Shown: in pieces, positions 4,441 through 19,860 of the stretch
Position numbering within the stretch: position 1 is the first letter of the stretch
Layout: the number at the start of each line of letters is the position of its first letter
Assembly: GCF_030369635.1 (NCBI RefSeq)
Contig: NZ_CP128474.1
Coordinates: forward strand, 310,001-374,000
Origin: Microbacterium arborescens
GTDB lineage: Bacteria > Actinomycetota > Actinomycetes > Actinomycetales > Microbacteriaceae
DNA: 64,000 nucleotides
Direction of reading: 5' to 3'
Notes under the pieces: generated by a model
What the model was told of the DNA's origin: nothing
What the model saw: the letters and a program-made list of their open reading frames with translations, nothing else
Databases searched by the model: none
Program-made: the position numbers and the translations under genes

Positions 4441-5109
4441 ATGGCACATCGAGCACTCGTCCTGACCGGATCGGGGCGGTACGCCGACCCGTGGCATCCG
4501 TTCGCCGAGGTCGGTGCGCAGGTCGCCGACATCCTCCGTCACCGTGATTGGGAAGTCGCCGTGTCGGACGACGTCGATCAGGGCATGGCGAACCTCGACG
4601 GCTACGACCTCGTCGCGGTCTGCGCGGGCGATCCGTGGCGCGGCGGAAGCAGCCTGACGCGGGGCGCCCCGCCGTCCTCGGTCGCGGGCTTCGCCGCGGC
4701 GCTCGAGCGCGGCATCGGCGTGCTGGCGGTGCATTCGGCGGTGTCGTCGCTGCGCGACTATCCGGAGTGGGCACCCGCGCTGGGCGCCATCTGGCTGCCC
4801 GAGCTCTCGTTCCACCCCGAGGCGGGTGAGATGACGGTCCAGGTCGAGCCGGATGCCGTGCCCGTCGAGGTTCCCACCACCTTCCACACCCACGACGAGC
4901 GCTACTGCGCGCTGCAGCGGCTCGGGCACCGGACCGTCGTGGCGTGGCACGAGGGCGATGGCGCGAAGGAGGCCGCGGCGTGGGTCCGGGAGTACGGTGG
5001 CGGCCGCATCGCGGTCGACGTGCTTGGTCACGACGCTCGCGCCTTCGAGGCCTCGGGGCACCGCACGCTCGTCGCCGCTCTGGCGGCCTGGGCGGTCGCG
5101 AGCAGCTGA
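4441..5109 (+). CDS. ThuA-like domain protein
   Basis: A 222-residue protein with a ThuA-like (class I glutamine amidotransferase-like) fold. It starts with ALVLTGSGRYADPWHPF, contains VLAVHSAVSSLRDYPEW and an acidic/His segment TFHTHDERYCAL, and ends with GGGRIAVDVLGHDARAF. ThuA-family proteins are linked to sugar (trehalose/disaccharide) utilisation, but the biochemical role of most is unknown. An in-frame ATG at 4399 exists, but the box TACGGT at 4407-4412 lies just after it and looks like a -10, so the ATG at 4441 is preferred. It is monocistronic and ends 25 bp before the convergent chelatase gene. Confidence 0.8.
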   Translation: MAHRALVLTGSGRYADPWHPFAEVGAQVADILRHRDWEVAVSDDVDQGMANLDGYDLVAVCAGDPWRGGSSLTRGAPPSSVAGFAAALERGIGVLAVHSAVSSLRDYPEWAPALGAIWLPELSFHPEAGEMTVQVEPDAVPVEVPTTFHTHDERYCALQRLGHRTVVAWHEGDGAKEAAAWVREYGGGRIAVDVLGHDARAFEASGHRTLVAALAAWAVASS

Positions 5110-5134
5110 TCCGGGAACCCGTGGATCGGACGCG

Positions 5135-5833
5135 TCAGCGAAGCGCGGCGCGATACCTCTCGACGACGACCGCCGCGACCGCGTCGTCGGGGGCGAGCGG
5201 CTCGGTCACGATGTCTGCTCCGGCGTTCGCGATCACGCCCGCGAAGTGTCCGGGGGCGAGGACGTAGCTCGCGGCGAAGACGCGCGTCGCACCTGTCGCG
5301 CGCGCGGCCTCGACCGCCACGCCGATGCGGATGCCGGCGCCCGCGGCGAAGCCCACCGACACCGGCATACCCAGATGGGCGGTCAGCAGCTCCGCCATCG
5401 CCATGACGTCGACCTCGGCCGCCGGGTCGGACGATCCCGCCGCCGCGAGCACGACTGCTTCGTCGCCGGGGGCGGCGTCGCCCGCGGCCAGGCCGGCGGC
5501 GCGCAGCCGCTCGGCGAGCAGACCAGCCAGCAGGTCGTGCGGTCCCAGGGCGGGGGTCGCGACGCACGGGCCGGGGGCCGCCGCGACCGCGCGTGCGATG
5601 TCGACCCGCGTGTGGAAGCCGGTGGAGAGCAGCAGTGGCACGACGACGGATGCCGCCCCCGGGGGCACGCCCGCGACGACGGTGTCGATCTCGGGCTCCT
5701 GCACGTCGACGAACGCCTCCTCGACCTGCACCCCGGGGAGCATCTCGCGCACCCGCGAGACGACCCCGGCGATCGCGGCCCGGCCCTCGAGGGAGCTCGT
5801 GCCGTGGGAGCAGGCGATGAGGACCGGGGTCAT
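5135..5833 (-). CDS. Sirohydrochlorin chelatase-like protein (CbiX/SirB)
   Basis: A 232-residue CbiX/SirB-type ferrochelatase that would insert Fe(II) into sirohydrochlorin, the last step of siroheme synthesis. The metal-binding His of the family is in LIACSHGT (near residue 10), a second His is in LLSTGFHTRVDI (near 80), and the C-terminal half (AGAGIRIGVAVEAAR, then APGHFAGVI) repeats the fold. It is the last gene of the nitrite-reductase/siroheme operon; its ATG overlaps the stop of the preceding gene (ATGA). Its position next to cysG and nirB supports a siroheme rather than a cobalamin role. Confidence 0.88.
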   Translation of the reverse strand: MTPVLIACSHGTSSLEGRAAIAGVVSRVREMLPGVQVEEAFVDVQEPEIDTVVAGVPPGAASVVVPLLLSTGFHTRVDIARAVAAAPGPCVATPALGPHDLLAGLLAERLRAAGLAAGDAAPGDEAVVLAAAGSSDPAAEVDVMAMAELLTAHLGMPVSVGFAAGAGIRIGVAVEAARATGATRVFAASYVLAPGHFAGVIANAGADIVTEPLAPDDAVAAVVVERYRAALR

Positions 5834-6975
5834 GGCGTCGTTCCCGTCGTCGTGAGGTCGAGTCGATACCCGCGTTTGACGACCGTCCGGATGAGGCCGG
5901 GGCACCCGAGCGCTTCGCGCGTGCGGGCGATCGCGACGTCGAGGGCGTGGTCGCCGGCGCTCGAACGCGGCAGCGACCGCTGCAGATCGGTGCGGCTCAC
6001 GACGCCACCCGCCGCGGCGAAGAGTGCTTCGAGGATGAGGGCTGAGGTCGGTGAGAGCGGGATCACGCGCCCGTCGAGGACGGCGGCCGAGCTGCGCAGC
6101 TCCAGTCGTCCGGCCGGGGTGAGAAGCGAGGGCGCGTGGCCGCCGCCGAAATGGGTGACGACGGCGCGGACGAGCGAGCCCAACCGCCCGCGTTCGGCGA
6201 TCAGAGGTTCCGCTCCGGCGCCGCGGAGGGGGGCTGCGGTGATCGGCCCGACGGCCGCGAGAAGCAGCCTCCGGCCGTGCGCCCGCTGGACGATGTCGTC
6301 GAGGACGCCTTCCCGGCGGGCGGTTGCGATCCATTCCGCCGCGCCCGGCGCGGAGGTGAAGAGCACGGCGTCGACCTCGCCCTGTGCGGTCGCGACGACC
6401 GAGCGCGCGACGGCCGCCGGGTCGGGCGGCGGCCCCCACCGGTACACCGTGAGGCTGACGACGTCTGCGCCCGCACCGGTGAACAGCTCGTCGAGGCCGT
6501 CGGCTCCCGAGCCGTGATGCTGCACCGCGACGCGGCGACCGCGCACGCCTTCGGCGAGCAGGAACTCGCCGAGCTCGCCCGAGGTCTCCGACTCGGCGAC
6601 CCAGTCGGCCAGGAGGCCCGCTTGCTGGATCGCACCGCGCGCTTTGGGCCCGCGGGCGACGATCTGGGCGCCGGCGAAGGCGTCGTGCAGATCGTCGAGG
6701 AGCCCTGCTTCGTCGGCGGCCTCCATCCACCCCCGGAATCCCACGCCTGTCGTCACGACGACGACATCCGGCGGATCTGCGATCAGCGAGTGCGTCGCCG
6801 AGATGAGCGCCTCGTCGTCGATGTGCGGCACGATGCTCAGCGCCGGCGCGTGTCGCACGCTCGCCCCGTGCCGCTCGAGCGCCGTCGCGAGCTCGTTCGA
6901 GCGCCGATCGACGGCGATGACGATCGTGCAACCACCGAGAGCGGCCGAGAGTGCGGGACGGACGGACTGATTCAC
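5830..6975 (-). CDS. HemD domain-winged helix fusion, NnaR-like nitrite assimilation regulator
   Basis: A 381-residue protein. The N-terminal part (about 1-265) is a uroporphyrinogen-III synthase-like domain, with VVVVTTGVGFRGW, IVARGPKARGA and AVLFTSAPGAAEW. The C-terminal part (about 285-378) is an OmpR/PhoB-type winged helix (PLSPTSALILEALFAAAGGVVSR, then ALDVAIARTREALG, then RTVVKRGYRL). Fusions of this kind are known in actinobacteria (NnaR of Streptomyces, Rv0260c of Mycobacterium), where NnaR activates nitrate/nitrite assimilation genes. Its location inside the nir/siroheme operon fits that role. The GTG start overlaps the cysG stop (GTGA). Whether the HemD half keeps catalytic activity or acts as a sensor is unknown. 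Confidence 0.87.
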   Translation of the reverse strand: MNQSVRPALSAALGGCTIVIAVDRRSNELATALERHGASVRHAPALSIVPHIDDEALISATHSLIADPPDVVVVTTGVGFRGWMEAADEAGLLDDLHDAFAGAQIVARGPKARGAIQQAGLLADWVAESETSGELGEFLLAEGVRGRRVAVQHHGSGADGLDELFTGAGADVVSLTVYRWGPPPDPAAVARSVVATAQGEVDAVLFTSAPGAAEWIATARREGVLDDIVQRAHGRRLLLAAVGPITAAPLRGAGAEPLIAERGRLGSLVRAVVTHFGGGHAPSLLTPAGRLELRSSAAVLDGRVIPLSPTSALILEALFAAAGGVVSRTDLQRSLPRSSAGDHALDVAIARTREALGCPGLIRTVVKRGYRLDLTTTGTTP

Positions 6976-8201
6976 CGGGTGACGCGCTCCCGTTCTCCAG
7001 CGTGCGCGAGCAGCAGGCCCGGTCGGGCGACCTCGCCGATCACGATGACCGCGGGATTCGCGACACCGGCGGCTGCGGCATCCGCGAGCACCGTCGCGAG
7101 CGTCGATCGGGTCGTGCGCTGCTGCGGCGTGTGCCCCCGCTCGACGATGGCGACCGGACGCTCGGCAGGAGCGCCCGCGGCCCGCGCGGCCTCGACGATG
7201 CGCGGCAGCGCGGCGACGCCCATCAGGAAGACGGTCGTGATCGCGTCGTCGCCGAGCGCCGCCCGTGTCGACGGCGTGATCGGCCCCTGGCCGTTGGCGA
7301 CGTGGAGCCCGCCCGAGACGCCGCGGTGGGTGACCGGGATGCCGGCGGCTTGCGGCACCGAGACGATGCTCGTGAGGCCGGGGACGACCTCGACCGGGAT
7401 GCCGGCCGCGTGGCAGGCCGCGACCTCCTCGCCACCGCGGCCGAAGACGAACGGATCGCCGCCCTTGAGGCGCACGACGCGTTTGCCGGCGCGGGCATGA
7501 GCGACCAGCAGGACGTTGATCTCGTCCTGCGTCACCGGGTGGTGGCCGGGCTGCTTGCCGACGTCGATGACCTCGACACCGGGCTCGAGCTCGTGAAGGA
7601 CGTCGACGGGGCCGAGCCGGTCGGCCACGACGACATCCGCTTCGGCGAGGAGGCGCCGGCCCCGCACGGTCATGAGGTCGGCCGGACCCGGGCCGCCGCC
7701 GACGAGATCGACCCGGCCACCGCCGCGGCGGCGTCGGCGCAGCGGCAGCATCCCGGCACGCAGCGCGGCGGCGATCGCGTCGCGCAGGCGCACCGCGCGT
7801 CGCGGGTCGACGCCCGCGTCCGAGGCGACCCCCACTATGACGTCGCCACTGCGGGTCTCGGCCGCCAGCCGCGCCGAGCCGTGCGCCCCGTCGGAGGTGT
7901 TCACGCAGAAGACGCGGTCCGATTCGCACCACGCCGCGACCGCGGCATCCACCTGGGGGATGCCGGTAGCCGTGTGCACGAGCCACGCGTCGGCGATATC
8001 GTCCCGCCGCACGTCGCGCGGCAGCCAGGTGAGGCCGTGCGCGGTCACGACATCCCGCATGGCGTCGCCGAGGGCGGGGGAGACGACCCGGACGTCCGCT
8101 CCTTCGTCGAGGAACCGGCCGATCCGCCGGGCGGCGACAGCCCCGCCGCCGACGAAGACGACGCGACGGCCGGTGAGCGAGAGCCCGAGCATCGTGGTCA
8201 T
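6972..8201 (-). CDS. cysG: Siroheme synthase: precorrin-2 dehydrogenase fused to uroporphyrinogen-III C-methyltransferase
   Basis: A 409-residue fusion. The N-terminal domain (about 1-150) has a dinucleotide-binding stretch VVFVGGGAVAARRIGRF for NAD-dependent oxidation of precorrin-2. The C-terminal domain (about 160-400) is the SAM-dependent uroporphyrinogen-III methyltransferase, with LVGGGPGPADLMTVRG, VVADRLG, VRLKGGDPFVFGRGGEE, PGLTSIVSVPQAAGIP and a terminal PAVIVIGEVAR. It provides siroheme to NirB. The ATG overlaps the nirD stop and the stop overlaps the HemD-fusion start. With SirB downstream, the dehydrogenase domain need not also be the chelatase. Confidence 0.93.
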   Translation of the reverse strand: MTTMLGLSLTGRRVVFVGGGAVAARRIGRFLDEGADVRVVSPALGDAMRDVVTAHGLTWLPRDVRRDDIADAWLVHTATGIPQVDAAVAAWCESDRVFCVNTSDGAHGSARLAAETRSGDVIVGVASDAGVDPRRAVRLRDAIAAALRAGMLPLRRRRRGGGRVDLVGGGPGPADLMTVRGRRLLAEADVVVADRLGPVDVLHELEPGVEVIDVGKQPGHHPVTQDEINVLLVAHARAGKRVVRLKGGDPFVFGRGGEEVAACHAAGIPVEVVPGLTSIVSVPQAAGIPVTHRGVSGGLHVANGQGPITPSTRAALGDDAITTVFLMGVAALPRIVEAARAAGAPAERPVAIVERGHTPQQRTTRSTLATVLADAAAAGVANPAVIVIGEVARPGLLLAHAGERERVTR

Positions 8202-11253: not shown

Positions 11254-12174
11254 TCAGACCCGGGCGGTCTCGGGCTCGGCGGCTGCGGGCTCGGCGGCGG
11301 GCTCGACGGCGGGTTCGACGGTGGCCGGCGCGACGGCCCCGGTCGCACGGGTGCGCTTGGGCGTGCGCGCGCGACGCGGCGAGGTCGGCCGGCCGTAGGT
11401 GAAGTAGAGCGGGATCGCGACGAAGACGAGGCCACCGACGAGGTTTCCGAGCACGGTGGGGATCTCGTTCCAGATCAGGTAGTCCATGATCGTGAAGTCA
11501 CCGCCGAGGAGGAGCCCCGAGGGGAACAGGAACATGTTCACGATCGAGTGCTCGAAGCCCATGAAGAAGAAGAGCATGATCGGCATCCACATCGCGAAGA
11601 TCTTTCCGATGACATCCTTCGAGATCATCGCCAGCACGACGCCCGTCGCGACCATCCAGTTGCACAGGACGCCGCGGACGAAGAGCGTGAGCATGCCCGC
11701 TGCGCCGTGCTCGGCGTAGCCGACGGTGCGGCCCTCGCCGATGTGGCCGATCGCCTGGCCCACCTCGTTCGGCGGGGTCGAGAACCCGTAGGTGACGACG
11801 ATCGCCATGAGGACGGCGACGGTGAAGGCGCCGATGAAGTTGCCGAGGAACACCAGGCCCCAGTTGCGCAGGATGCCGCCGAGCGTCACCCCCGGACGCC
11901 GGTCGAGCCAGGCGAGCGGCGCGAGCACGAAGACGCCGGTCAGCAGGTCGTAGCCGAGCAGGTACAGCATGATGAAGCCGATCGGAAAGAGGACGGCGCC
12001 GAGCAGCGGCATCCCCGTCGTCACGGTGATCGTCACGGCGAAGGCGGCGGCGATCGTGAGGACGGCGCCGCCCATGATGGAGCGGATGAGCGTGTCGCGG
12101 GTCGAGAGCATGACCTTCGACGCACCCGCGTCGATGACGGTCTGAACGAGCTCGGTGGGCTTGACGTAGGACAT
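11254..12174 (-). CDS. nirC: Formate/nitrite transporter family protein, likely nitrite channel
   Basis: A 306-residue FocA/NirC-type membrane channel with six hydrophobic segments. Recognisable parts are the first helix region GGAVLTIAAAFAVTIT, the loop LLTGVFVLAPLAWLD, NWGLVFLGNFIGA, VRGVLCNWMVATGVVLA and GFEHSIVNMFLFPSGLL. The last ~45 residues form an Ala/Pro/Glu-rich cytoplasmic tail (repeats of VEPAVEPAAEPA). It lies 75 bp upstream of nirB on the same strand, so nitrite rather than formate is the likely substrate. The GGAGG before the ATG is clear. Confidence 0.92.
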   Translation of the reverse strand: MSYVKPTELVQTVIDAGASKVMLSTRDTLIRSIMGGAVLTIAAAFAVTITVTTGMPLLGAVLFPIGFIMLYLLGYDLLTGVFVLAPLAWLDRRPGVTLGGILRNWGLVFLGNFIGAFTVAVLMAIVVTYGFSTPPNEVGQAIGHIGEGRTVGYAEHGAAGMLTLFVRGVLCNWMVATGVVLAMISKDVIGKIFAMWMPIMLFFFMGFEHSIVNMFLFPSGLLLGGDFTIMDYLIWNEIPTVLGNLVGGLVFVAIPLYFTYGRPTSPRRARTPKRTRATGAVAPATVEPAVEPAAEPAAAEPETARV

Positions 12175-12350
12175 CGCGTCCTCCTTCGGTCGAGAGCCGG
12201 TGGGTATGGTGCTCGACGCTAGGGGCGGGGTGTTTCCTCGGCGGTCTCGCTGATCGTCCGTTCCGTTACCTCTTTCTCTCTTCGGGCCGTCGGCGGTTGT
12301 GAGATCGCCGGCTCTGGTGGCGATTCGGCGGGGTGGTGCAGAGTAGCGGT
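12175..12350. promoter_or_regulatory. Divergent nirC / MOSC promoter region
   Basis: A 176-bp gap with outward genes on both sides. It must hold the promoter of the nir operon. A pyrimidine-rich stretch (TTACCTCTTTCTCTCTT) lies mid-gap. No clear palindromic operator was found by eye, so the NnaR or GlnR site is not assigned. Confidence 0.45.
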
Positions 12351-13148: not shown

Positions 13149-13182
13149 GCCGGGGTGGTCGGCATCCGTTCGTGGGTGCCGG

Positions 13183-13255
13183 GATGCAAGGGATCGTGCC
13201 CGACACCCGGGTGGGATGCCCCGGCGCCGGGGTGTCGTCGGCAATCACTTGCATC
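13183..13255. repeat. Palindromic interspersed repeat, copy A
   Basis: A 73-bp imperfect inverted repeat beginning GATGCAAGGGATCGTGCC and ending with the near-complement GGCAATCACTTGCATC. The arms also share CGACACCC/GGGTGTCG. Related copies lie at 13313-13386 and 63014-63086. Confidence 0.75.
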
Positions 13256-13312
13256 GCGGCGGGCTGAGCGGTGCAGGGGCGGGGCCGGGGCGGGGCTTGG
13301 TTCACGTGCGGG

Positions 13313-13386
13313 GATACAAGTGTTCCCGACCGACACCCGGGTGGAGGATGCCGCATCGCGGCGTGTCGGGTGTGGTCCCTTGCATC
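13313..13386. repeat. Palindromic interspersed repeat, copy B
   Basis: A 74-bp relative of copy A. The left arm is GATACAAGTGTTCCCGACCG, and the right arm ends GGTCCCTTGCATC. The shared block CGACACCCGGGTGG follows the left arm in both A and B. It sits in the gap between the MOSC gene and the tRNA-Gly fragment. Confidence 0.72.
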
Positions 13387-13439
13387 GCGAATCGGCGCGA
13401 CTGGGGCGGGTCGATTACGACGGCAACCGCACGAATGCG

Positions 13440-13477: not shown

Positions 13478-13523
13478 GAGGGGCTGACGGGAATCGAACC
13501 CGCGCTATCTGCTTGGGAAGCAG
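13478..13523 (-). repeat. attL: displaced tRNA-Gly 3' half
   Basis: 46 bp identical to 19789-19834. It covers the anticodon 3' side, variable loop, T arm and acceptor 3' strand of tRNA-Gly(CCC). Homology stops abruptly at 13523 (next base T versus A at the other copy). Confidence 0.9.
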
Positions 13524-13879
13524 TGAGCAGGCCCCCGGAGTTCCGCGTGATCCTAGGTTTCTGGGCCCCGGTCGTGTGGTCTGGTGAGGTCGAGTTAGGG
13601 CACGTGATGGCCCCTAAGGGCACGAATAGGGCACGGCCGGAGGCCCCCACGCGAGGCATTGGCGATGCCAGGCTGTTGCATCATGGACCACTCCGGGCTG
13701 TGGAGAGAGATTCGAGGCTGGAGCGCCACCAGGAGCCGTGAGAGCCGCACAGAGTGACGAACGAGCGCAGGGTGGGGTGAGAGGGCCTGGACGGTGTGAA
13801 AGTCGCTCAGGCGGGCGCACACGGCGCGAGGGGCGGACCAGCCGGGTAGGCCAGCCCGCTCCTCGGCGCTGATCGGTGG
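13524..13879. other. Element left end without a supported gene
   Basis: A 356-bp stretch between attL and the last leftward gene. It contains the AGGGCACG cluster and a small hairpin GGCAT-TGGCG-ATGCC near 13656. A minus-strand 75-codon frame at 13595-13822 has no family features and covers the att arm region, so it is not called as a gene. If the element is packaged by a helper phage, a recognition site could lie here, but nothing proves it. Confidence 0.5.
13595..13635. promoter_or_regulatory. Left cluster of AGGGCACG repeats, candidate integrase arm sites
   Basis: Three direct copies: TTAGGGCACG (13595), TAAGGGCACG (13615) and ATAGGGCACG (13626). Two more copies lie near the other end (19693-19713). 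Direct repeats placed on both flanks of the core att site are typical of tyrosine-integrase arm-binding sites. Confidence 0.6.
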
Positions 13880-14572
13880 TCAGGCGTCCACCGGCACGCG
13901 GTCGAGCCCGTCCATCATCGACTCGATGAGGTTCCCGGACGGGCCGGGCACCGCTTCGGCGTCGCCGTCGTCCAGGAGGCCCAGCACGGCAGGGTCGGCA
14001 CGGTTGAGGAGCACGCGGCCCTCGAACGGGATCGAGCCCGCCGTCGCGACGCCCTCCAGGATCGAGCGCCACGCACGCGCCGGGATCGTGGCCTCCTCGG
14101 CGGCGACGACGGCCTGCGCCGTCTCATCCACCTGCACGAGCCGATCCCAGATCATCTCGTGGAGCGCGCCGAGCACGGATGCCGGGTCGCGTGCCTCCAG
14201 GACCTCGGGGCTTGTCTCGGCGCTGTCGAGGATCGCGGCGAGCCGGTCACGGCTGGCGGTCGCGATGACCTCCGGGAGGAGACGGCCCGCGGTGAGCAGG
14301 GCGCTCACCTTCGCCTGCTCGTGCTGGACACGGGCGATGTCGTCGGCGGTGGCCGGGGCGAGCGCGTCGAGGACCGGCTGACGGTCAGGGGTCGCCGCGG
14401 GCTCGGCGGGCATCGCGTCGAGGAGTCGAGCCCGGATCGCTTCGACCTCGGCACGCTGGCGAGCCCGGAGGCCCTCCGGTGTCAGGTGCGGATCGGTGGT
14501 GCGTGCCGTTGCGAGGAGGTCGCGGCGCGCGGTAGTGATGAGGGTGATGAGGGTGGCGCTGTCGATGGTCAC
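13880..14572 (-). CDS. Hypothetical helical protein, distal gene of element
   Basis: A 230-residue protein with no recognised family. It is predicted by eye to be mostly alpha-helical, with Ala/Glu/Arg-rich segments (RAEVEAIRARLLDAM; VQVDETAQAVVAAEEA) and an acidic C-terminus (LLDDGDAEAVPGPSGNLIE). The GTG start is preceded by GGAGG at 6-7 bases and overlaps the stop of the zinc-binding protein gene (GTGA). As the last gene after the terS-like gene, it could be a packaging or capsid-modifying accessory of the satellite or a helper-interaction protein. That is speculation. Confidence 0.7.
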   Translation of the reverse strand: MTIDSATLITLITTARRDLLATARTTDPHLTPEGLRARQRAEVEAIRARLLDAMPAEPAATPDRQPVLDALAPATADDIARVQHEQAKVSALLTAGRLLPEVIATASRDRLAAILDSAETSPEVLEARDPASVLGALHEMIWDRLVQVDETAQAVVAAEEATIPARAWRSILEGVATAGSIPFEGRVLLNRADPAVLGLLDDGDAEAVPGPSGNLIESMMDGLDRVPVDA

Positions 14573-14991
14573 GACGGCCTCCGTTCTGTGTTGGTGTCGG
14601 TGCCCTGCTGGGCGATGGTCCCCGCCGTCTGACGGGAGGTCTTGCGGCGGGCGCGGGCCTCGCGGTCCCACTCGCGTCGGCATCCACGGCAAGCACCGCT
14701 GGGGGTGGTGCCGAACGCTATGCGGGCGTGACCCCGCGGGCAGAGCGTCCAGTTGCCGCCCCCGTCGCGCTGGCCGTTGTGAGAGCGGCACATCGGCACG
14801 TAGTCCTCGTAGTTCGTGGACCACTTCACGACCGTGCCGCGTTCGCTGTAGCCGATGTTCGTCGGGTGACCGAGGAGGCCCCAGCCGATGGCGGGGGTGT
14901 CGCAATCCGGGTGGGCGCAGGGGAGGCCCACGGCGGACCCGCGGCGGCGACGCAGTTCGTGGTGCACGCCCTCGTAGGTGCGGGCGGTCAT
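14569..14991 (-). CDS. Cys-rich zinc-binding (HNH-like) phage protein
   Basis: A 140-residue protein with two metal-ligand clusters: CAHPDC near residue 24 with YVPMCRSHN, and CPRGH with CRGCRREWDREARARR near 100-115. The second cluster resembles the zinc ribbons at the end of many actinophage HNH-type proteins. A clear HNH catalytic signature is not seen, so nuclease activity is uncertain. The ATG at 14991 overlaps the stop of the upstream small gene (14988), and its own stop overlaps the next GTG. It is part of the tightly packed leftward operon. Confidence 0.72.
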   Translation of the reverse strand: MTARTYEGVHHELRRRRGSAVGLPCAHPDCDTPAIGWGLLGHPTNIGYSERGTVVKWSTNYEDYVPMCRSHNGQRDGGGNWTLCPRGHARIAFGTTPSGACRGCRREWDREARARRKTSRQTAGTIAQQGTDTNTERRPS

Positions 14992-15215
14992 TGGAGTCCC
15001 CTCTCCGCTCGGCGTGCCTCCAGGCGCGCCTCTGCTCGCTGTGCTCGGTGACGCTGAGCCGCGGCCTCCGCGCTGAGCGCACCCGTGTACGCGGTAATGG
15101 TCGAGCGCACTGGCTCGGGGAGGGTGACGAGGATGCTCCGGTACGGCAGGAACGCGGCCTTGGCGCGAGCGCGGGCGAGGTCTACGTCGCTCGGTCGGGG
15201 GGTGCTGTGCACCAC
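14988..15215 (-). CDS. Small hypothetical protein in element operon
   Basis: A 75-residue basic, helical protein (RARAKAAFLPYRSILVTLPEP, then AAAQRHRAQRAEARLEARRAERG). It lies 3 bp after the terS-like gene and overlaps the next ATG. Adjacent GTG codons at 15215 and 15212 are both possible starts. No function is recognised; the Arg/Ala-rich C-terminal helix could be a coiled coil. Confidence 0.6.
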   Translation of the reverse strand: MVHSTPRPSDVDLARARAKAAFLPYRSILVTLPEPVRSTITAYTGALSAEAAAQRHRAQRAEARLEARRAERGLQ

Positions 15216-15218
15216 GGG

Positions 15219-15671
15219 TCAGCCCTCCCCGTTGACGAGCCGGTCGAGCAGGCTCCCCACCTGCTCCAGGCCCGCCGTGTGCGCCGCGTCGAGGTTGAGG
15301 AGACGCGCGCGGCGCTCCATCACCTTCAGGCATCCCTCCGCGGCTCGCACGTCGCCCGCAACTGCGTCAGGGAACAGTCCGCGGAAGATCGCATCGAGCC
15401 GGTCGAGTTCGAGCAGGCGCAGTTCGTTCGCCTCCTCACGCGGGATCGCCGCGAGGGCATCCCTCAGCCACGTGTAGACGGTGCGGGGGTGCACCTTCAG
15501 GTGTGCGGCGATGGCCTCGACGGAGATGCCCGCACGGCGCATCTGGAGCGCCTTCGCCTTGCGGGTCGCGCGGGCGACGCGGGCGGGAACGCCCTTCGGG
15601 GCGGGCCGGTCGCCGAGGAGGTATTCCGCGGCGAGGTCGGCAGTGGTCGGGTCGTGCTGTGGGGTGCTCAT
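15219..15671 (-). CDS. Terminase small subunit-like protein
   Basis: A 150-residue protein. Residues ~38-75 form a helix-turn-helix (KALQMRRAGISVEAIAAHLK, then HPRTVYTWLRDALA). The rest (LRLLELDRLDAIFRGLFPDA, then GDVRAAEGCLKVMERRARLLNLD) follows the pattern of actinophage small terminase or terminase-like DNA-binding proteins. In phage-inducible islands a satellite-encoded TerS redirects helper packaging to the island genome, and the absence of a large terminase here fits that. The start ATG overlaps the stop of the replication-like gene (ATGA). A sequencing-style generic HTH regulator is the alternative call. Confidence 0.68.
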   Translation of the reverse strand: MSTPQHDPTTADLAAEYLLGDRPAPKGVPARVARATRKAKALQMRRAGISVEAIAAHLKVHPRTVYTWLRDALAAIPREEANELRLLELDRLDAIFRGLFPDAVAGDVRAAEGCLKVMERRARLLNLDAAHTAGLEQVGSLLDRLVNGEG

Positions 15672-16393
15672 CGAGCGCCCTCCTCTCTGTCCGTGAACGT
15701 GAGGCCGTGACGGCGCGCATAGCGCTGACCGGCTGGGGATAGGTCTGTTATCGAGCCGTCGAGCGGTTCACCTTCGGCGCGGCGGCGCTCCATCTCGTGC
15801 CAGTACTCGGTGATGAGGTCGTTCGCGTGCTCGCGTGATTCGACGCTGGGGAACTCGTAGTCGAGGGCTCGGGTGAGGTCACCGATGAATGCCAGTTGCC
15901 GAGGAGATGCCGGGAGGTCATCGAGCCGCCGACCTCGCGAGGGCGGCTTTAGAAGTGGGTCTACTTCTTGGGTCTTCTTCCCTGGGTCTACTTCGTAGGC
16001 ATCTGGTGCCTCAATCGACAGGCACGAGGTGCCGGAATCGGAGGCAGGAGGTGCCGGAATCGTGTCCGTGGGTGCTGACGTGAATGCGGCAGGAGATGCC
16101 GGAATCGACAGCGGCGGGCGCATCCCCACGCGGTATCGGTTGCCCTGCTTCGTGCCACGGCTCACCACCTCCACGAGCCCGACCTCGATGAGGCGCTTCA
16201 GCGCGGCACGCACCGCTCGCGGCGACTGGCCCGACTCTCGCGCGATGAGGTCCTGACCTGGGAACGTCACGCCGTGCTCATCGGCGCGGTCGCGCAGAAC
16301 GGCGTACACGGCGATCTGCGGCGGGGTGAGCCCGAACGCGGGTACGGCCTCGCGCGTCACCCAGTGAGGAGCCCGCACCCAGCCCACCGTCAT
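15668..16393 (-). CDS. Replication-initiator-like winged-helix protein
   Basis: A 241-residue protein. The N-terminal ~95 residues form a winged helix (LTPPQIAVYAVLRDRADEHG, then SPRAVRAALKRLIEVGLVEVV), as in phage/plasmid replication and replisome-organiser proteins. The middle is a Pro/Ser/Thr-rich linker, and the C-terminal ~85 residues (SPRQLAFIGDLTRALDYEFP) form a helical domain. It is placed between xis and terS, where satellites carry their rep module. No helicase or primase motifs are seen, so it may load host or helper replication proteins. Both ends overlap neighbours by 4 bp. Confidence 0.65.
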   Translation of the reverse strand: MTVGWVRAPHWVTREAVPAFGLTPPQIAVYAVLRDRADEHGVTFPGQDLIARESGQSPRAVRAALKRLIEVGLVEVVSRGTKQGNRYRVGMRPPLSIPASPAAFTSAPTDTIPAPPASDSGTSCLSIEAPDAYEVDPGKKTQEVDPLLKPPSRGRRLDDLPASPRQLAFIGDLTRALDYEFPSVESREHANDLITEYWHEMERRRAEGEPLDGSITDLSPAGQRYARRHGLTFTDREEGAR

Positions 16394-16506
16394 CGCTCAC
16401 CCTCCGCAACTTCGGCGAGCGCGAACTCGGCCAGGTGCGCGTCGAAGCGGTCGAGCGCGGCGAGCATCGAGACGAACGGCTCCGAGGTCTGCTGTGTCGT
16501 GTCCAT
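16390..16506 (-). CDS. 38-residue small ORF in element operon
   Basis: A short ORF (MDTTQQTSEPFVSML..., 38 residues) with a GGAGGG ribosome site upstream. Its stop overlaps the ATG of the replication-like gene (ATGA). The sequence is acidic and helical. The N-terminus (MDTTQQ) resembles the excisionase N-terminus (MTTTQQ) just upstream, hinting at a partial duplication. The function is unknown; it could be a coupling leader or a small helper-interaction protein. Confidence 0.55.
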   Translation of the reverse strand: MDTTQQTSEPFVSMLAALDRFDAHLAEFALAEVAEGER

Positions 16507-16527
16507 CAGGGTCACCCTCCGGACGGC

Positions 16528-16788
16528 TCAGCGCTTCGGGCGCGCGAGCGCGGTGGGTTCGTCTACCTGCGCGCCGTCGAGCATGCGGAGGAGCGCCGGG
16601 ACCGGGACGACGAGGCGGCGACCGATGCGAAGCGTCGGAATCTCGCCACGCTGTGCGGCCTGGTATCCAACCCACGGGCTGAGCCCGAGAACGCTGGATG
16701 CCTCAGGGACAGTGACCGTGGCGCGCGTCCCGTCGCGAAGGTCCGCGAGGGTGAGCGTCGGCTGGTCGTTCTGCTGGGTGGTGGTCAT
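16528..16788 (-). CDS. xis: Excisionase / AlpA-like DNA-binding protein
   Basis: An 86-residue MerR-like winged-helix protein of the excisionase type, with TVPEASSVLGLSPWVGYQAA followed by GEIPTLRIGRRLVVPVPALLRML, the usual excisionase layout. It is the first gene of the leftward operon and faces the XRE regulator across 76 bp. It would bend att DNA to drive excision and in many islands also activates the operon. Confidence 0.82.
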   Translation of the reverse strand: MTTTQQNDQPTLTLADLRDGTRATVTVPEASSVLGLSPWVGYQAAQRGEIPTLRIGRRLVVPVPALLRMLDGAQVDEPTALARPKR

Positions 16789-16864
16789 CTCTTTGCCCCG
16801 TTCTCGTTGTGTCTGGCTGCATGTCCATCATGTGAGGTAGCGTTGCCTGTGGAGGACAGGTGTT
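16789..16864. promoter_or_regulatory. Divergent control region of the element
   Basis: A 76-bp gap between xis and the XRE gene. Rightward, GTAGCGT (near 16852) may be a -10, and GGAGG precedes the ATG of the repressor. The block CATGTCCATCATGTG contains two CATGT-like half sites that could be operators. This is the expected lysogeny-type switch. Confidence 0.5.
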
Positions 16865-17524
16865 ATGAAAACCGCTACACATCTCGATCAGTACATCGGC
16901 GCACGCATCGCGGAGGTCCGCGCGAAGCGGGGCATGAGCCAGGCCCACTTCGCACGAGAGGTCCGCGCCCTCGTTGGCGTCGGGTGGTCACGCCAGGTCG
17001 CATGGCAGGTGGAGCGCGGCGAGAAGGCCGTAGCCGCCGCCGACCTCGTGGCCGTGGCGTGGGTGCTCGAATGCACCGTGGCCGACCTCATGAGCACCAC
17101 CGAGCCGGTCAGCCTCGGCGGCGAGCAGACCCTCCGCACCGACGCCATCGTGGCCGGGGAGGAGGCTATGCCCGAGGTCGAGGCGTGGGCCCGGTTCGAG
17201 GAGGCCGCCGACGCCCTCGCGGACGTGCGCCACGCATGGGAGCGCTACGCGCACTTGATCGACGTGGTGCGGCGGCGCGTGGCCGACACCCCGGCCCTGC
17301 GGCGGCGCATCGAGACGTTCGGTGCGAAGGCCCTCCGGCGCGCCGTGGCCGAGATGGAGGAGGCGTTCGGCTTCCGACCGACCGCCGATTTCGACGCCGA
17401 GAGCGCCGCACGGTCGAACCCAACCCCGGCGATGCTCGTGGCGTTCGACGCCCTCGGCACACACAAGGTCAGCGAGAGCCAATGGCGGCGATGGACGCGC
17501 CGCGCAGAGAGGAGCACGCGATGA
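16865..17524 (+). CDS. XRE-family repressor of the element (Stl/CI-like)
   Basis: A 219-residue protein. Residues ~10-75 form an XRE helix-turn-helix (IGARIAEVRAKRGMSQAHFA, then VGWSRQVAWQVERGEKAVAAADLVAVAW). A long helical C-terminal region (PEVEAWARFEEAADALADVR and onward to WRRWTRRAERSTR) may sense an inducing partner. It overlaps the integrase gene (ATGA) and is divergent from xis, as Stl-type repressors are in phage-inducible islands. No peptidase/LexA-type cleavage domain is seen, so induction by helper-protein binding rather than RecA cleavage is plausible but inferred. Confidence 0.78.
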   Translation: MKTATHLDQYIGARIAEVRAKRGMSQAHFAREVRALVGVGWSRQVAWQVERGEKAVAAADLVAVAWVLECTVADLMSTTEPVSLGGEQTLRTDAIVAGEEAMPEVEAWARFEEAADALADVRHAWERYAHLIDVVRRRVADTPALRRRIETFGAKALRRAVAEMEEAFGFRPTADFDAESAARSNPTPAMLVAFDALGTHKVSESQWRRWTRRAERSTR

Positions 17525-18789
17525 GCGCGCGCAAGACGAACCGGGCATCCTTCGGGACCGTCCGCAAACTGCCCTCGGGTCGCTACCAGGCCCGCTACCC
17601 GGAGGCGAACGGCCAGCGCGTCACAGCCCCGACCACGTTCGTGACGAAGCGTGAGGCGCTCGACTGGCTCGCCGGGGTGCGCGCCGACAAGATGCGCGGT
17701 CAGTTCCGCGACCACCGGGCCGGGTCCGAGGCGTTCGGCCCCTATGCCGCCGACTGGATCGAGAACGGCGGTTCACGGGGCAGACTCGCGCCCAAGACGC
17801 GCGCGAACAACGAAGACCTCCTCGCCGGTCTGCTCGCCCCGCTTCACGACTACCCGCTGAACACGATCACCCCCGCCATCGTCCGGTCCTGGTACAGCCG
17901 GGCGCGCAAGGACCTCGCCGCCACGCTGAAACTGCGTGCGGAGGAGGCGCGGCGCAAGGTGCTGGAGACGGCGAAGCGGCGCGGCATCGAGCCCCCGGAG
18001 GCTCCACCCATCCCCACCGGCGAGTCGCGGCTCCGGCAGGCGTACACCCTCCTGCGCTCCATCCTCCAGACCGCCGTCCGTGACGGGCTGATCGGCTCGA
18101 ACCCGTGCCAGATCGTCGGTGCCGGGTCCGTCGCCCACCCCGAGCGACCGTACATGACGCCGGAGGCGCTCGCCGCCATCGTCAACGCCATGCCGGAGCA
18201 GTGGACGCTCCCGATCCGTGTGATGTTCGGCGCGCACCTGCGCGTCGGTGAACTCGTCGCCCTCCAGCGCGGCGACTACGCCGATGGGGTGCTGAGGGTG
18301 GAGCGTCAGACGATCCGTGTGCGAGGCGAGTTCATCACCACGGCCACGAAGACCGGCAACTCGCGGTCGGTCGCGCTCCCGCCTCGGATCGCCGCTGAGG
18401 TCGAGGCGCACCTGGCCGGGACCACCGGGTTCGGCAAGTCGCCGCTGTTCCCTCGCGCCGATGGAGAGGCGATTACGGGGAACGCGCTCGGTCAGGCGTG
18501 GCGCAAGGCCGCGCGAAGCATCGGGCTCGGGCAGTTCCACGTGCATGACGTGCGGCATGCGGGGCTGACGATGGCGGCGCAGGGCGGAGCCACGACGCGG
18601 GAACTTATGGCGCGCGCCGGGCACTCCACAGCGCGCGCGGCGCTCATCTACCAGCACGCGGCGGAGGAGCGGAACGTCGCAATCGCGGCGACCCTTGACG
18701 CCCTTGCTGGCGCGGCCCTGGAACCGCGCGCGACTATGCAGTCCACGGGCTTGCAGGCGGTGATCCGCGTCGAGATGCCAGGCCTGTGA
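17521..18789 (+). CDS. int: Tyrosine-family site-specific integrase
   Basis: A 422-residue phage-type integrase. Residues ~8-65 are an AP2-like/arm-binding N-terminal domain (GTVRKLPSGRYQARYPEANG). The core-binding domain spans ~70-200, with a long charged helix. The catalytic domain carries Arg241 (FGAHLRVGEL), His342-x-x-Arg345 (HDVRHAG), His368 (RAGHSTA) and Tyr377 (ALIYQHA). The ATG overlaps the repressor stop. The upstream in-frame extension is shadow over the repressor gene. It catalyses integration between attP and the tRNA-Gly 3' end found at both borders. Confidence 0.95.
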   Translation: MSARKTNRASFGTVRKLPSGRYQARYPEANGQRVTAPTTFVTKREALDWLAGVRADKMRGQFRDHRAGSEAFGPYAADWIENGGSRGRLAPKTRANNEDLLAGLLAPLHDYPLNTITPAIVRSWYSRARKDLAATLKLRAEEARRKVLETAKRRGIEPPEAPPIPTGESRLRQAYTLLRSILQTAVRDGLIGSNPCQIVGAGSVAHPERPYMTPEALAAIVNAMPEQWTLPIRVMFGAHLRVGELVALQRGDYADGVLRVERQTIRVRGEFITTATKTGNSRSVALPPRIAAEVEAHLAGTTGFGKSPLFPRADGEAITGNALGQAWRKAARSIGLGQFHVHDVRHAGLTMAAQGGATTRELMARAGHSTARAALIYQHAAEERNVAIAATLDALAGAALEPRATMQSTGLQAVIRVEMPGL

Positions 18790-18882
18790 ATTGCGGCGAC
18801 TCAGACCACGGGGGTGTTACAGTGGGTGCACGCCGTGACTGCGCCGCTATCGCAGGTTTTGGGGAAACCCAGACACGGCGTC

Positions 18883-19629
18883 TTACTTTTTCGGGATGTA
18901 GATGAGCCCGTAGCCCGCCATTGCGCCGGTCCTACTGCGTCGAACCCGATCCGCAATCCGGTCGAAGAACCGCGTGTCGCCCGCACTCTCCTTGCGATAC
19001 ACGCATCCCGCCACGAGGTCCGCGAACTGCGTGCCGGGGCTGTGGTGTGACGCGGCAATGAACAGGCCCTCGATGAGATTCCCGTAGTTGCTCGTGAATG
19101 CTCCGCCCTGGAGCAGAGTCTGATGGAACTCCTTCAGCCGGTTGTCCTGGTCGTTGTTGCGGTTGTCGCACACGATCATTCCGCGCATCGGGGAGCCCGA
19201 TTCACGCTCCAAGTCCTGAAGAAAGTACTGGAAGCGTTCGCTCAACTGCTTGAACGCGAACTGGTAGAGGTCGTCCGCATCCTCGATTCCCCGGCGCTGG
19301 TATGTCGCTACTGTGTCCACGACTGCTGCGATGATCCGGATGGCTTTGTACCGTGCCACCGCGTCCAGCAACTCCTCGCGTAGCGCGTCGCGCTCGTCAC
19401 GTTCGAGGTGGGAGAGGGAGTGTGTCTTTCCGCCCTTCGGGGGTGCGAAGTACCGCCACTTGATTTCGCCCGTTACCTTGTGGCGGCGCTTGGCGGCTTC
19501 GAGGTCTGCCTTCAGTTTCGGCCAAACCTCCTCTGGGACTACCAGCCCGCCTAGAACGAAGAGTGGGGTGGCGGACGCCTTATCGGGCGGCGGCGCGGTT
19601 CCGCTCTCGTCCACGAACAGGATGTGCAT
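18883..19629 (-). CDS. DUF3800 domain protein, element cargo
   Basis: A 248-residue protein with the DUF3800 pattern: N-terminal VDESG (residues 6-10, acidic active-site-like strand), FVLGGLVVP, a central AAVVDTVATYQ and a later acidic MIVCDNRNNDQDNR, then GTQFADLVAGCVYRKESAGD. The conserved acids (Asp7, the DNR..D cluster and FADL) resemble an RNase H-like nuclease core. It sits between int and attR in opposite orientation with its own promoter, the usual spot for satellite cargo. By eye its composition is less GC-rich than its neighbours. DUF3800 proteins recur in mobile elements and near defence genes; activity is unproven. Confidence 0.82.
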   Translation of the reverse strand: MHILFVDESGTAPPPDKASATPLFVLGGLVVPEEVWPKLKADLEAAKRRHKVTGEIKWRYFAPPKGGKTHSLSHLERDERDALREELLDAVARYKAIRIIAAVVDTVATYQRRGIEDADDLYQFAFKQLSERFQYFLQDLERESGSPMRGMIVCDNRNNDQDNRLKEFHQTLLQGGAFTSNYGNLIEGLFIAASHHSPGTQFADLVAGCVYRKESAGDTRFFDRIADRVRRSRTGAMAGYGLIYIPKK

Positions 19630-19692
19630 GCCTCAGATTCTACGAAGCGGTGAGACGTATCTGACGCGTCAGCGAGCGCACCGTGTGAAGGC

Positions 19693-19713
19693 TAAGGGCA
19701 CGAGGAGGGCACG
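19693..19713. promoter_or_regulatory. Right AGGGCACG repeats, candidate integrase arm sites
   Basis: TAAGGGCACG (19693-19702) and GGAGGGCACG (19704-19713) match the three copies at the left end in the same orientation. They lie ~75 bp inside attR. Confidence 0.6.
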
Positions 19714-19786
19714 AGCGCGCCTACATGGGGTCAATGGAGGCGAACGCACTGGCGACGAAATCTATTCTGACCTGGGGATAATCCTG

Positions 19787-19860
19787 TGGAGGGGCTGACG
19801 GGAATCGAACCCGCGCTATCTGCTTGGGAAGCAGATGTTCTGCCATTGAACTACAGCCCC
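19787..19860 (-). tRNA. tRNA-Gly (anticodon CCC)
   Basis: On the minus strand the 71-nt cloverleaf begins GGGGCTG (acceptor), pairs with CAGCCCC at its end, has the anticodon arm TCTGC-TTCCCAA-GCAGA with anticodon CCC, and the T arm GCGGG-TTCGATT-CCCGT. Discriminator T and an encoded CCA follow (19787-19790). It decodes GGG. It is the integration target of the adjacent element, which supplies its 3' 46 bases. Confidence 0.95.
19789..19834 (-). repeat. attR: tRNA-Gly 3' half restored by the element
   Basis: 46 bp identical to 13478-13523. It forms the 3' part of the intact tRNA-Gly, so integration kept the tRNA functional. Confidence 0.9.

Follow-up and report, generated by a model that had tools for sequence, protein, structure and literature searches.

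A probable phage satellite of the PICI-like kind in a tRNA-Gly gene of Microbacterium arborescens

We identified a compact integrated element in a 64,000-nucleotide stretch of the Microbacterium arborescens genome (NCBI RefSeq assembly GCF_030369635.1, contig NZ_CP128474.1, positions 310,001 to 374,000; hereafter the window, whose numbering is used for the element). The element lies in a tRNA-Gly gene and encodes an integrase, a putative repressor, a replication initiator and a small terminase subunit (TerS). We propose that the element belongs to a new lineage of phage satellites and functions like a phage-inducible chromosomal island (PICI) of the pac type, and put the probability of this reading at roughly 0.77. 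The reading draws on the borders and gene order of the element, on the position of TerS homologues in phages, on a family of compact relatives and on a 95%-identical copy in another genus.

Borders, gene content and the small terminase gene

An exact-match search recovered the 46-bp borders that a preliminary description of this DNA had given to a 6.36-kb element. The outer span, 13478-19834, is 6357 bp; the repeat copies (13478-13523 and 19789-19834) are identical, their starts lie 6311 bp apart, and they correspond to the 3' part of tRNA-Gly(CCC). The 46-bp sequence occurs exactly twice in the single-contig genome of 3,370,341 bases and a backwards-read control never, which excludes a chance repeat. 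Short direct repeats flank the element on the inside. GGGCACG has five copies on its + strand (13598, 13618, 13629, 19696 and 19707), all within 160 bp of the outer borders, and AGGGCACG is absent elsewhere on that strand, with a single reverse AGGGCAC at 14600. The AGGGCACG repeats fit what would be expected of integrase arm sites.

The strands bear out the layout described earlier, in which int and an XRE repressor gene read one way and xis, a rep-like and a terS-like gene the other, with cargo, now recognised as a DUF3800 protein, at the int end. The earlier gene list lacked three conserved genes beyond terS, encoding a 75-aa protein, an HNH-like protein and a protein here called A. The order is int and xre (+ strand), then, divergently (- strand), xis, a short open reading frame (ORF), rep, terS, the small ORF, the HNH-like gene and A. 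The features are as follows.

13478-13523, no strand: attachment (att) site copy distal to int, 46 bp, exact repeat
13597-13635, +: AGGGCACG in three direct copies, candidate arm sites for the integrase on one side
13880-14572, -: gene A, 230 aa, all-helical, family-conserved; AlphaFold predicted local distance difference test score (pLDDT) 93; no phage-record match
14569-14991, -: HNH-like protein, 140 aa; phrog_4160 (function unknown) at E 4.7e-9, and weak matches to HNH endonucleases (E 6.6e-4, 8.3e-3)
14988-15215, -: conserved small protein, 75 aa; no Pfam or PHROG match, conserved in relatives
15219-15671, -: TerS, 150 aa, by phrog_645, similarity to gp1 of phages Gingerbug and Jace, and synteny
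15668-16393, -: predicted replication initiator, lambda-O-like, 241 aa; HTH_36 E 4.1e-9, PHROG replication-initiation families down to E 3.6e-12
15948-16007, no strand: AT-richer stretch beside the iterons, 48% GC
15997-16107, -: candidate origin, four 21-bp iterons inside rep, spaced 23, 22 and 45 bp start to start
16390-16515, -: short ORF of about 40 aa, conserved in six relatives at 64-97% identity
16528-16788, -: excisionase- or regulator-like protein (HTH_17), 86 aa; weak Pfam and PHROG matches, position conserved
16865-17524, +: XRE-type repressor-like protein, 219 aa; HTH_31 E 4.4e-4 (below cut-off), phrog_3 transcriptional repressor E 1.3e-4
17521-18789, +: tyrosine integrase, 422 aa; Phage_integrase E 6.4e-13, phrog_1 E 6.7e-49
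18883-19629, -: cargo DUF3800 protein, 248 aa; PF12686 E 2.5e-20, PADLOC candidate PDC-M04A E 2.9e-11
19695-19713, +: AGGGCACG in two direct copies, candidate arm sites for the integrase on the other side
19787-19860, -: complete tRNA-Gly(CCC), the integration site, found by ARAGORN
19789-19834, no strand: att copy within the tRNA gene, 46 bp, exact repeat

Nine of the ten element proteins (all but that of the short ORF) were scanned against Pfam and PHROGs up to E 1. They gave no credible match to a large terminase (TerL), portal, capsid, lysis, relaxase or FtsK/Tra family. The cargo protein has a weak 'virion structural protein' match (E 0.41), and Rep matches phrog_11896, 'primosomal protein' (E 3e-6). 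The 75-aa protein is 88-95% identical in four relatives (L168, L169, L170 and L176), 45% in L171 and 53% in L172; it has no similarity to Gingerbug gp2. A search for an SOS box turned up two copies of GAACNNNNGTTC in the window, a number within chance expectation; the one in the element lies inside int, and none is near xis or xre.

The preliminary description suggested a profile search against TerS families. The 15219-15671 product matches phrog_645, labelled 'Rnase E', at E 1.9e-24, and otherwise gave only weak matches, to Terminase_5 on its helix-turn-helix (HTH) segment (E 0.016, below the cut-off) and to 'terminase small subunit' PHROGs (E 0.1). phrog_645 is also matched by Gingerbug gp1, Jace gp1 and a protein of L178, a relative discussed below. 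Matches in the phage collection are confined to five records, Gingerbug, DelaGarza, Lesiram and Jace (twice), with identities of 49-52% over about 72% of the protein to the first three and of 40% to Jace. The homologue overlaps the large terminase gene in Jace (gp1-gp2); in Gingerbug it is gene 1 and the terminase is gene 5.

Synteny was assessed in the best 80 of 491 IMG/VR loci, of which 75 were usable (room downstream, or a TerL). A TerL open frame follows on the same strand in 65 of the 75 and starts within 300 bp in 56, in a sample whose loci are not mutually independent and on which the TerL profile was itself grown. Among the ten misses, three hold TerS and TerL in one frame, L020 is itself a satellite, L052 has a TerL frame that begins ahead of TerS, and no TerL is seen in the remaining five. 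A narrower distance window, which had placed TerL downstream in 31 of 71, missed overlapping frames including that of Jace and was replaced. By synteny, the product is a TerS and not merely a regulator, as the preliminary description had suspected in calling the gene terS-like. The position of the relatives of phrog_645 also indicates that this family is a small terminase subunit and that its label 'Rnase E' is probably wrong. The structure test suggested earlier did not refute the TerS reading: the AlphaFold model (pLDDT 77) is helical with an HTH, which by itself is no proof. Because fold matches are weak, it is sequence and synteny that identify the product.

In phage lambda, iterons lie inside the initiator gene O, beside an AT-rich stretch. 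The iterons of the element adjoin one of its two lowest-GC 60-bp windows (48%; the tied window is at 16838). Of 22 rep loci, some of which are near-copies (for example the window, L169 and L176), 16 have at least four copies of a 12-mer (up to two mismatches) inside a 200-bp span; five further loci hold three copies and one holds two, and ten codon shuffles per locus never gave more than three. The last two gaps measure 21-23 bp in 15 of the 16 loci (L232 differs), and spacing stays conserved while iteron sequence varies between most lineages. The anatomy of a lambda-type origin, iterons in rep next to an AT-rich stretch, is present, and we predict that it acts as the origin. The Gingerbug counterpart of Rep, gp44 (25% identical), holds no iterons by the same scan.

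A family of compact relatives and movement between genera

Profiles of TerS and of A were searched against 366 Microbacterium genomes, and TerS against a draw of 398 genomes of the Microbacteriaceae; genome counts are lower bounds, as the 8-10 best first-look candidates were scored per genome. TerS was found at E<=1e-8 in at least 30 of the 366; in at least 10 of these, among them the window's genome, E was no higher than 2.1e-54. A was found at E<=1e-5 in at least 35. The draw gave TerS matches at E<=1e-3 in at least 93 genomes, mostly through a short HTH stretch. Outside the genus, among the best candidates of the draw, only one genome (G365) approaches the score of the window's own TerS.

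We mapped 41 loci, namely the window and 40 regions, each at most 20 kb long, surrounding selected hits. The maps come from our own codon-score gene finder, which misreads some window frames (rep and xre are missed there); C75 labels, from an iterated profile on whole open frames and possibly too broad, enter no count. Int, Rep, TerS and A occur together in 18 loci from 18 genomes, the window included. Exact tRNA-overlapping repeats of 27-68 bp bound 16 of these (all but L176 and L185), and spans range from 4.8 to 11.9 kb. The same gene order, which the preliminary description had proposed to look for at other tRNA sites, recurs at six tRNA genes: Gly CCC, Gly TCC, Ala TGC, Val GAC, Tyr GTA and Pro GGG.

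None of the 18 loci matches the TerL or portal profile. Across all 41, TerL matches only L178, L231 and L240, and portal only L178, which looks like a true prophage with TerS beside TerL and portal. No locus among the 41 is a full-length prophage with the same int, rep, terS and A plus TerL and capsid. The preliminary description had named relatives inside full-length prophages, with a common pattern of decay, as the outcome that would count against it; the relatives found are instead compact tRNA-bounded elements. L169, cut by a contig end, carries all family genes except A. The other 22 loci include L178, three unclear ones (L177, L182 and L183), L226, which is probably a remnant, and loci in which A stands alone or together with TerL. 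L224, L232, L241 and L242 have A and an integrase without a TerS call at the map threshold, although the A frame of L242 has a weak TerS match (2e-4). In L186 int runs in the same direction as the other genes, unlike in the window. Ratios of nonsynonymous to synonymous substitution (dN/dS; rough Jukes-Cantor values) are below one in 16 of 16 comparisons (0.10-0.67), with 0.10-0.60 for TerS, 0.14-0.37 for Int and 0.35-0.42 for Rep.

Gene A has 65 homologues (8000 candidates scored), and those labelled by organism belong to Microbacterium or Agromyces. Among 50,697 phage records, none matches it at E<=0.01. Its confident model has no fold match in the PDB at E<=0.001, and the only sequence matches in the PDB set are at E 0.18 and 0.51. 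In the satellites, no more than a few genes separate it from TerS. L231 and L240 have it ahead of an HTH protein of TerS size, which is followed by TerL; this HTH protein appears TerS-like by position, and that of L231 has a weak terminase small subunit PHROG match (E 0.007). A also lies beside genes that by eye resemble tad-pilus genes in L225, L228, L229, L231, L234 and L240, with no integrase of the family. An HTH protein of TerS size comes next in five of these six loci, two of which also have TerL, and some carry variable genes resembling, again by eye, restriction-modification. These loci might represent a second type of satellite that lacks an integrase, or else a defence hotspot.

The cargo of relatives includes an NgoMIV-type restriction-modification system with an HNH gene (L171:3079-5626). 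Further cargo lies at L181:11180-13028, L180:7945-8862, L186:7780-8691, L174:5163-6047 and 11338-12240, and L167:13635-14231, and comprises a second restriction-modification pair, HIRAN proteins, DUF4238, an MrcB-like protein and a PIN-domain protein.

The copy in G365, a member of another genus, gives the clearest view of movement. Over 2938 bp the element core is 95.1% identical to the window, and the int region is 92.6% identical; dnaK, the one gene compared, is 85% identical between G365 and the host. The G365 copy, whose int gene is broken, interrupts a transposase gene. Its flanks align to contiguous stretches of the same insertion sequence elsewhere, with a 7-bp overlap that marks the core of the insertion, and the uninterrupted junction occurs at three other places in G365 with zero mismatches. 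These alignments show site-specific integration and, as judged from sequence, recent movement across genera. In G636, of the same species as the host, tRNA-Gly is single and intact and has no element; between it and the flanking gene lies a different stretch of 2.7 kb (L190, about 4582-7308) with a gene named HipA-like by eye.

Paired copies of the tRNA-Gly 3' part, possibly marking further integrated elements, were seen at G009:C77:119785-127913 (about 8.1 kb) and G532:C6:99988-129408 (about 29 kb). To the left of the element, window positions 13176-13389 hold two copies of a repeat of about 85 bp, which has many further matches, roughly 72-84% identical, across the host genome and G636 and is a dispersed repeat family.

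Probable helper phages and tape-measure genes

A tree of 50 TerS proteins places 11 of 19 satellite rows, the window's included, in one clade (support 99/98), which holds only 4 of 28 phage rows: Gingerbug, L021, L022 and L023. The phage rows derive from 34 of 82 picked by score; L020 was left out if present, six near-duplicates were dropped, and 28 remain with L178. L021 groups with L173-L175 (99/94), and the other phage rows fall near the window's group, not firmly (88/72). At least three changes between satellite and phage are forced by the starred branches, so TerS has seemingly been exchanged more than once. The TerL proteins of L021-L023 are 72-95% identical to that of Gingerbug, and among 22 Gingerbug proteins compared with the window, gp1 (TerS) is the sole match.

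Two relatives carry lone full-length tape-measure genes, L167:5903-8053 (+) and L171:5899-8046 (+), whose products of 716 and 715 aa are 89% identical (dN/dS 0.24). Others lie at L185:12481-14742 (+), L232:11793-14042 (+) and L233:626-2485 (-). They were recognised by PF10145 in L167, L185 and L232 and by tblastn in L171, L232, L185 and L233. The best matches of the L167 product in 1952 phage records are DelaGarza and Lesiram (74-75% over 91%), followed by Gingerbug (59%), the same three Microbacterium phages that are picked by TerS. No other Gingerbug structural protein compared matched beside the lone genes at E 1e-4, a search that could miss distant tail genes.

The Gingerbug annotation holds no integrase, so this phage is probably virulent. 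We also searched for resident copies of the Gingerbug-type TerL family in 20 genomes, namely G636 and 19 that carry elements with TerS or A. It was absent at E<=1e-10 in all 20, in a search aimed at this terminase family alone that found all three known positives among five. The helper therefore probably arrives by infection, and its assignment rests on homology. The Gingerbug/DelaGarza/Lesiram group is the probable helper.

Known systems, rival explanations and significance

The element shares with Gram-positive PICIs of the pac type, such as the Staphylococcus aureus pathogenicity islands (SaPIs), the orientation of int and repressor one way and of xis, rep and terS the other, as well as a specific att site, cargo at the ends and the lack of structural or lytic genes (PMC6092414). 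PICIs and SaPIs are typically about 12-15 kb (PMC6092414), whereas the element is 6.3 kb. The PICI replication module consists of primase, initiator and origin (PMC6092414), whereas we recognised an initiator and iterons and no primase. Iterons inside rep, its own gene A and an actinobacterial host further set the element apart. It is thus PICI-like but not a PICI by the published definition: the gene order noted in the preliminary description matches, while strict membership founders on primase and size. That it is much shorter than PICIs also holds, but such a size is not unprecedented, the satellite PICMI115 being 6110 bp (PMC10803314).

The phage-inducible chromosomal minimalist islands (PICMI) of Vibrionaceae resemble the element in their size of about 6.1 kb, minimal gene set and lack of a recognised capsid-remodelling gene, and their helper is a virulent phage, as seems likely here; they differ in integrating by fis and in using alpA, int and prim and lacking terS (PMC10803314), whereas the element has a tRNA site, an O-like rep and terS. 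The PICI-like elements (PLEs) of Vibrio cholerae replace the tape-measure protein of their helper, and putative tmp genes are reported in other satellites (PMC12987554). The tape-measure genes of L167, L171, L185 and the A-bearing L232 recall the PLE gene (PMC12987554), but the window element has none, and those of its relatives stand alone, without chaperone or hub by comparison with Gingerbug, and mostly with terS. The Streptomyces satellites MulchRoom and MiniFlayer likewise depend on apparently virulent phages of actinobacteria, but encode portal, capsid, scaffold and both terminase subunits (PMC10690885), whereas the element has TerS only. Predicted PICIs of Actinomycetota share a portal gene with these two (PMC10690885). 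Small actinobacterial elements have been supposed to be possible satellites, and a 2023 survey noted that experimental satellite work in actinobacteria lags (PMC10023795). We found no description of the present family in the available portions of the literature on satellites of actinobacteria or Microbacterium and on tape-measure proteins, which included few subscription papers. New here are the iterons within rep, the cross-genus copy, the probable helper group and a gene A without a match in phage records.

We propose the following cycle. The tyrosine integrase places the element in tRNA-Gly, as anatomy and comparison show, and the XRE repressor would keep it quiet. Once a helper infects the cell, most likely a Microbacterium siphophage of the Gingerbug/DelaGarza/Lesiram type (about 39.7 kb), repression would be lifted, after which Xis and Int may excise a circle. 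The lambda-O-like Rep would bind the iterons in its own gene and start replication. The element's TerS, perhaps with A and the HNH-like protein, would then redirect the helper's large terminase to satellite DNA, and helper heads may be filled by concatemers of about six units, given the ratio of 39.7 to 6.31 kb and the PICMI precedent. The DUF3800 gene would be passenger cargo, possibly defensive. More tentatively, we speculate that these satellites build chimeric Gingerbug-type particles, TerS and A redirecting the motor and some members replacing the tape-measure protein; we regard this extension as doubtful.

Several points weigh against the satellite reading. Excision, induction, packaging and transfer are predictions. 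No primase family was found among the nine proteins scanned, and the TerS model matches solved TerS structures weakly, no better than it matches unrelated folds. A role of A in packaging, like that of the HNH-like protein, is a guess, and dN/dS is comparatively high for HNH (0.43-0.67) and A (0.52-0.67). G636 does not offer a clean empty site, as the 2.7-kb stretch lies there. The other 8 of 19 satellite TerS rows fall elsewhere in the tree, so one helper need not serve the entire family, and no resident helper TerL was detected. No pac or cos site emerged when 12- to 16-mers common with the Gingerbug ends were compared with codon shuffles. Several elements had more shared words than their shuffles, but among the first three positions per element the runs lie in terS, with single words elsewhere.

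The element might instead be a decayed prophage, in which an ordinary temperate phage has shed the structural genes while retaining int, rep and terS. Its recognisable core genes are of phage kind, and L226, with a truncated int frame and A, looks like a remnant. We consider this very improbable, as 18 genomes show the same compact arrangement at several tRNA genes, A is unmatched in the phage records, dN/dS is uniformly below one, the copy in another genus is 95% identical, and the TerL family of the related phages (the one sought) is missing from the 20 genomes although the known positives were found. The preliminary description had argued against a normal prophage from the absence of TerL, portal, capsid and tail genes, and the scan of the nine proteins gave no credible TerL, portal or capsid match. 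Another possibility is a domesticated interference island that moves rarely, in which TerS, A and the HNH-like protein mainly block the packaging of invading phages. Restriction-modification and other defence-type cargo in relatives speaks for it, as does the presence of A, without a recognised integrase, beside the pilus-like locus, twice with TerL; the presence of int, xis, iterons and att together with recent cross-genus movement makes it, in our view, equally improbable.

Spread by conjugation as an integrative and mobilizable element (IME) or a small actinomycete integrative and conjugative element (AICE), or by general transduction, with the HTH protein a regulator rather than TerS, would account for the weak TerS fold match. 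Modules of int, xis, rep and repressor occur in AICEs and IMEs too, which counts for this explanation. The Pfam scan of the nine proteins, however, gave no FtsK/TraB-like translocase or relaxase, in agreement with the earlier argument from missing tra genes. Homologues of the HTH protein precede TerL in phages, and the tape-measure gene in two relatives is closest to that of the same phage group. We consider this explanation very improbable.

A phage satellite working like a pac-type PICI remains our preferred reading. The family offers a conserved marker in gene A, a candidate origin and several tRNA sites, and its candidate helpers are named, cultured on M. foliorum NRRL B-24224 and sequenced, which makes an actinobacterial TerS-satellite system directly testable. 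Our maps also show lone tape-measure genes in a further satellite lineage. If the suggestion of chimeric particles is true, it would be a case independent of the tail piracy of the Vibrio PLEs, and one in siphophages.

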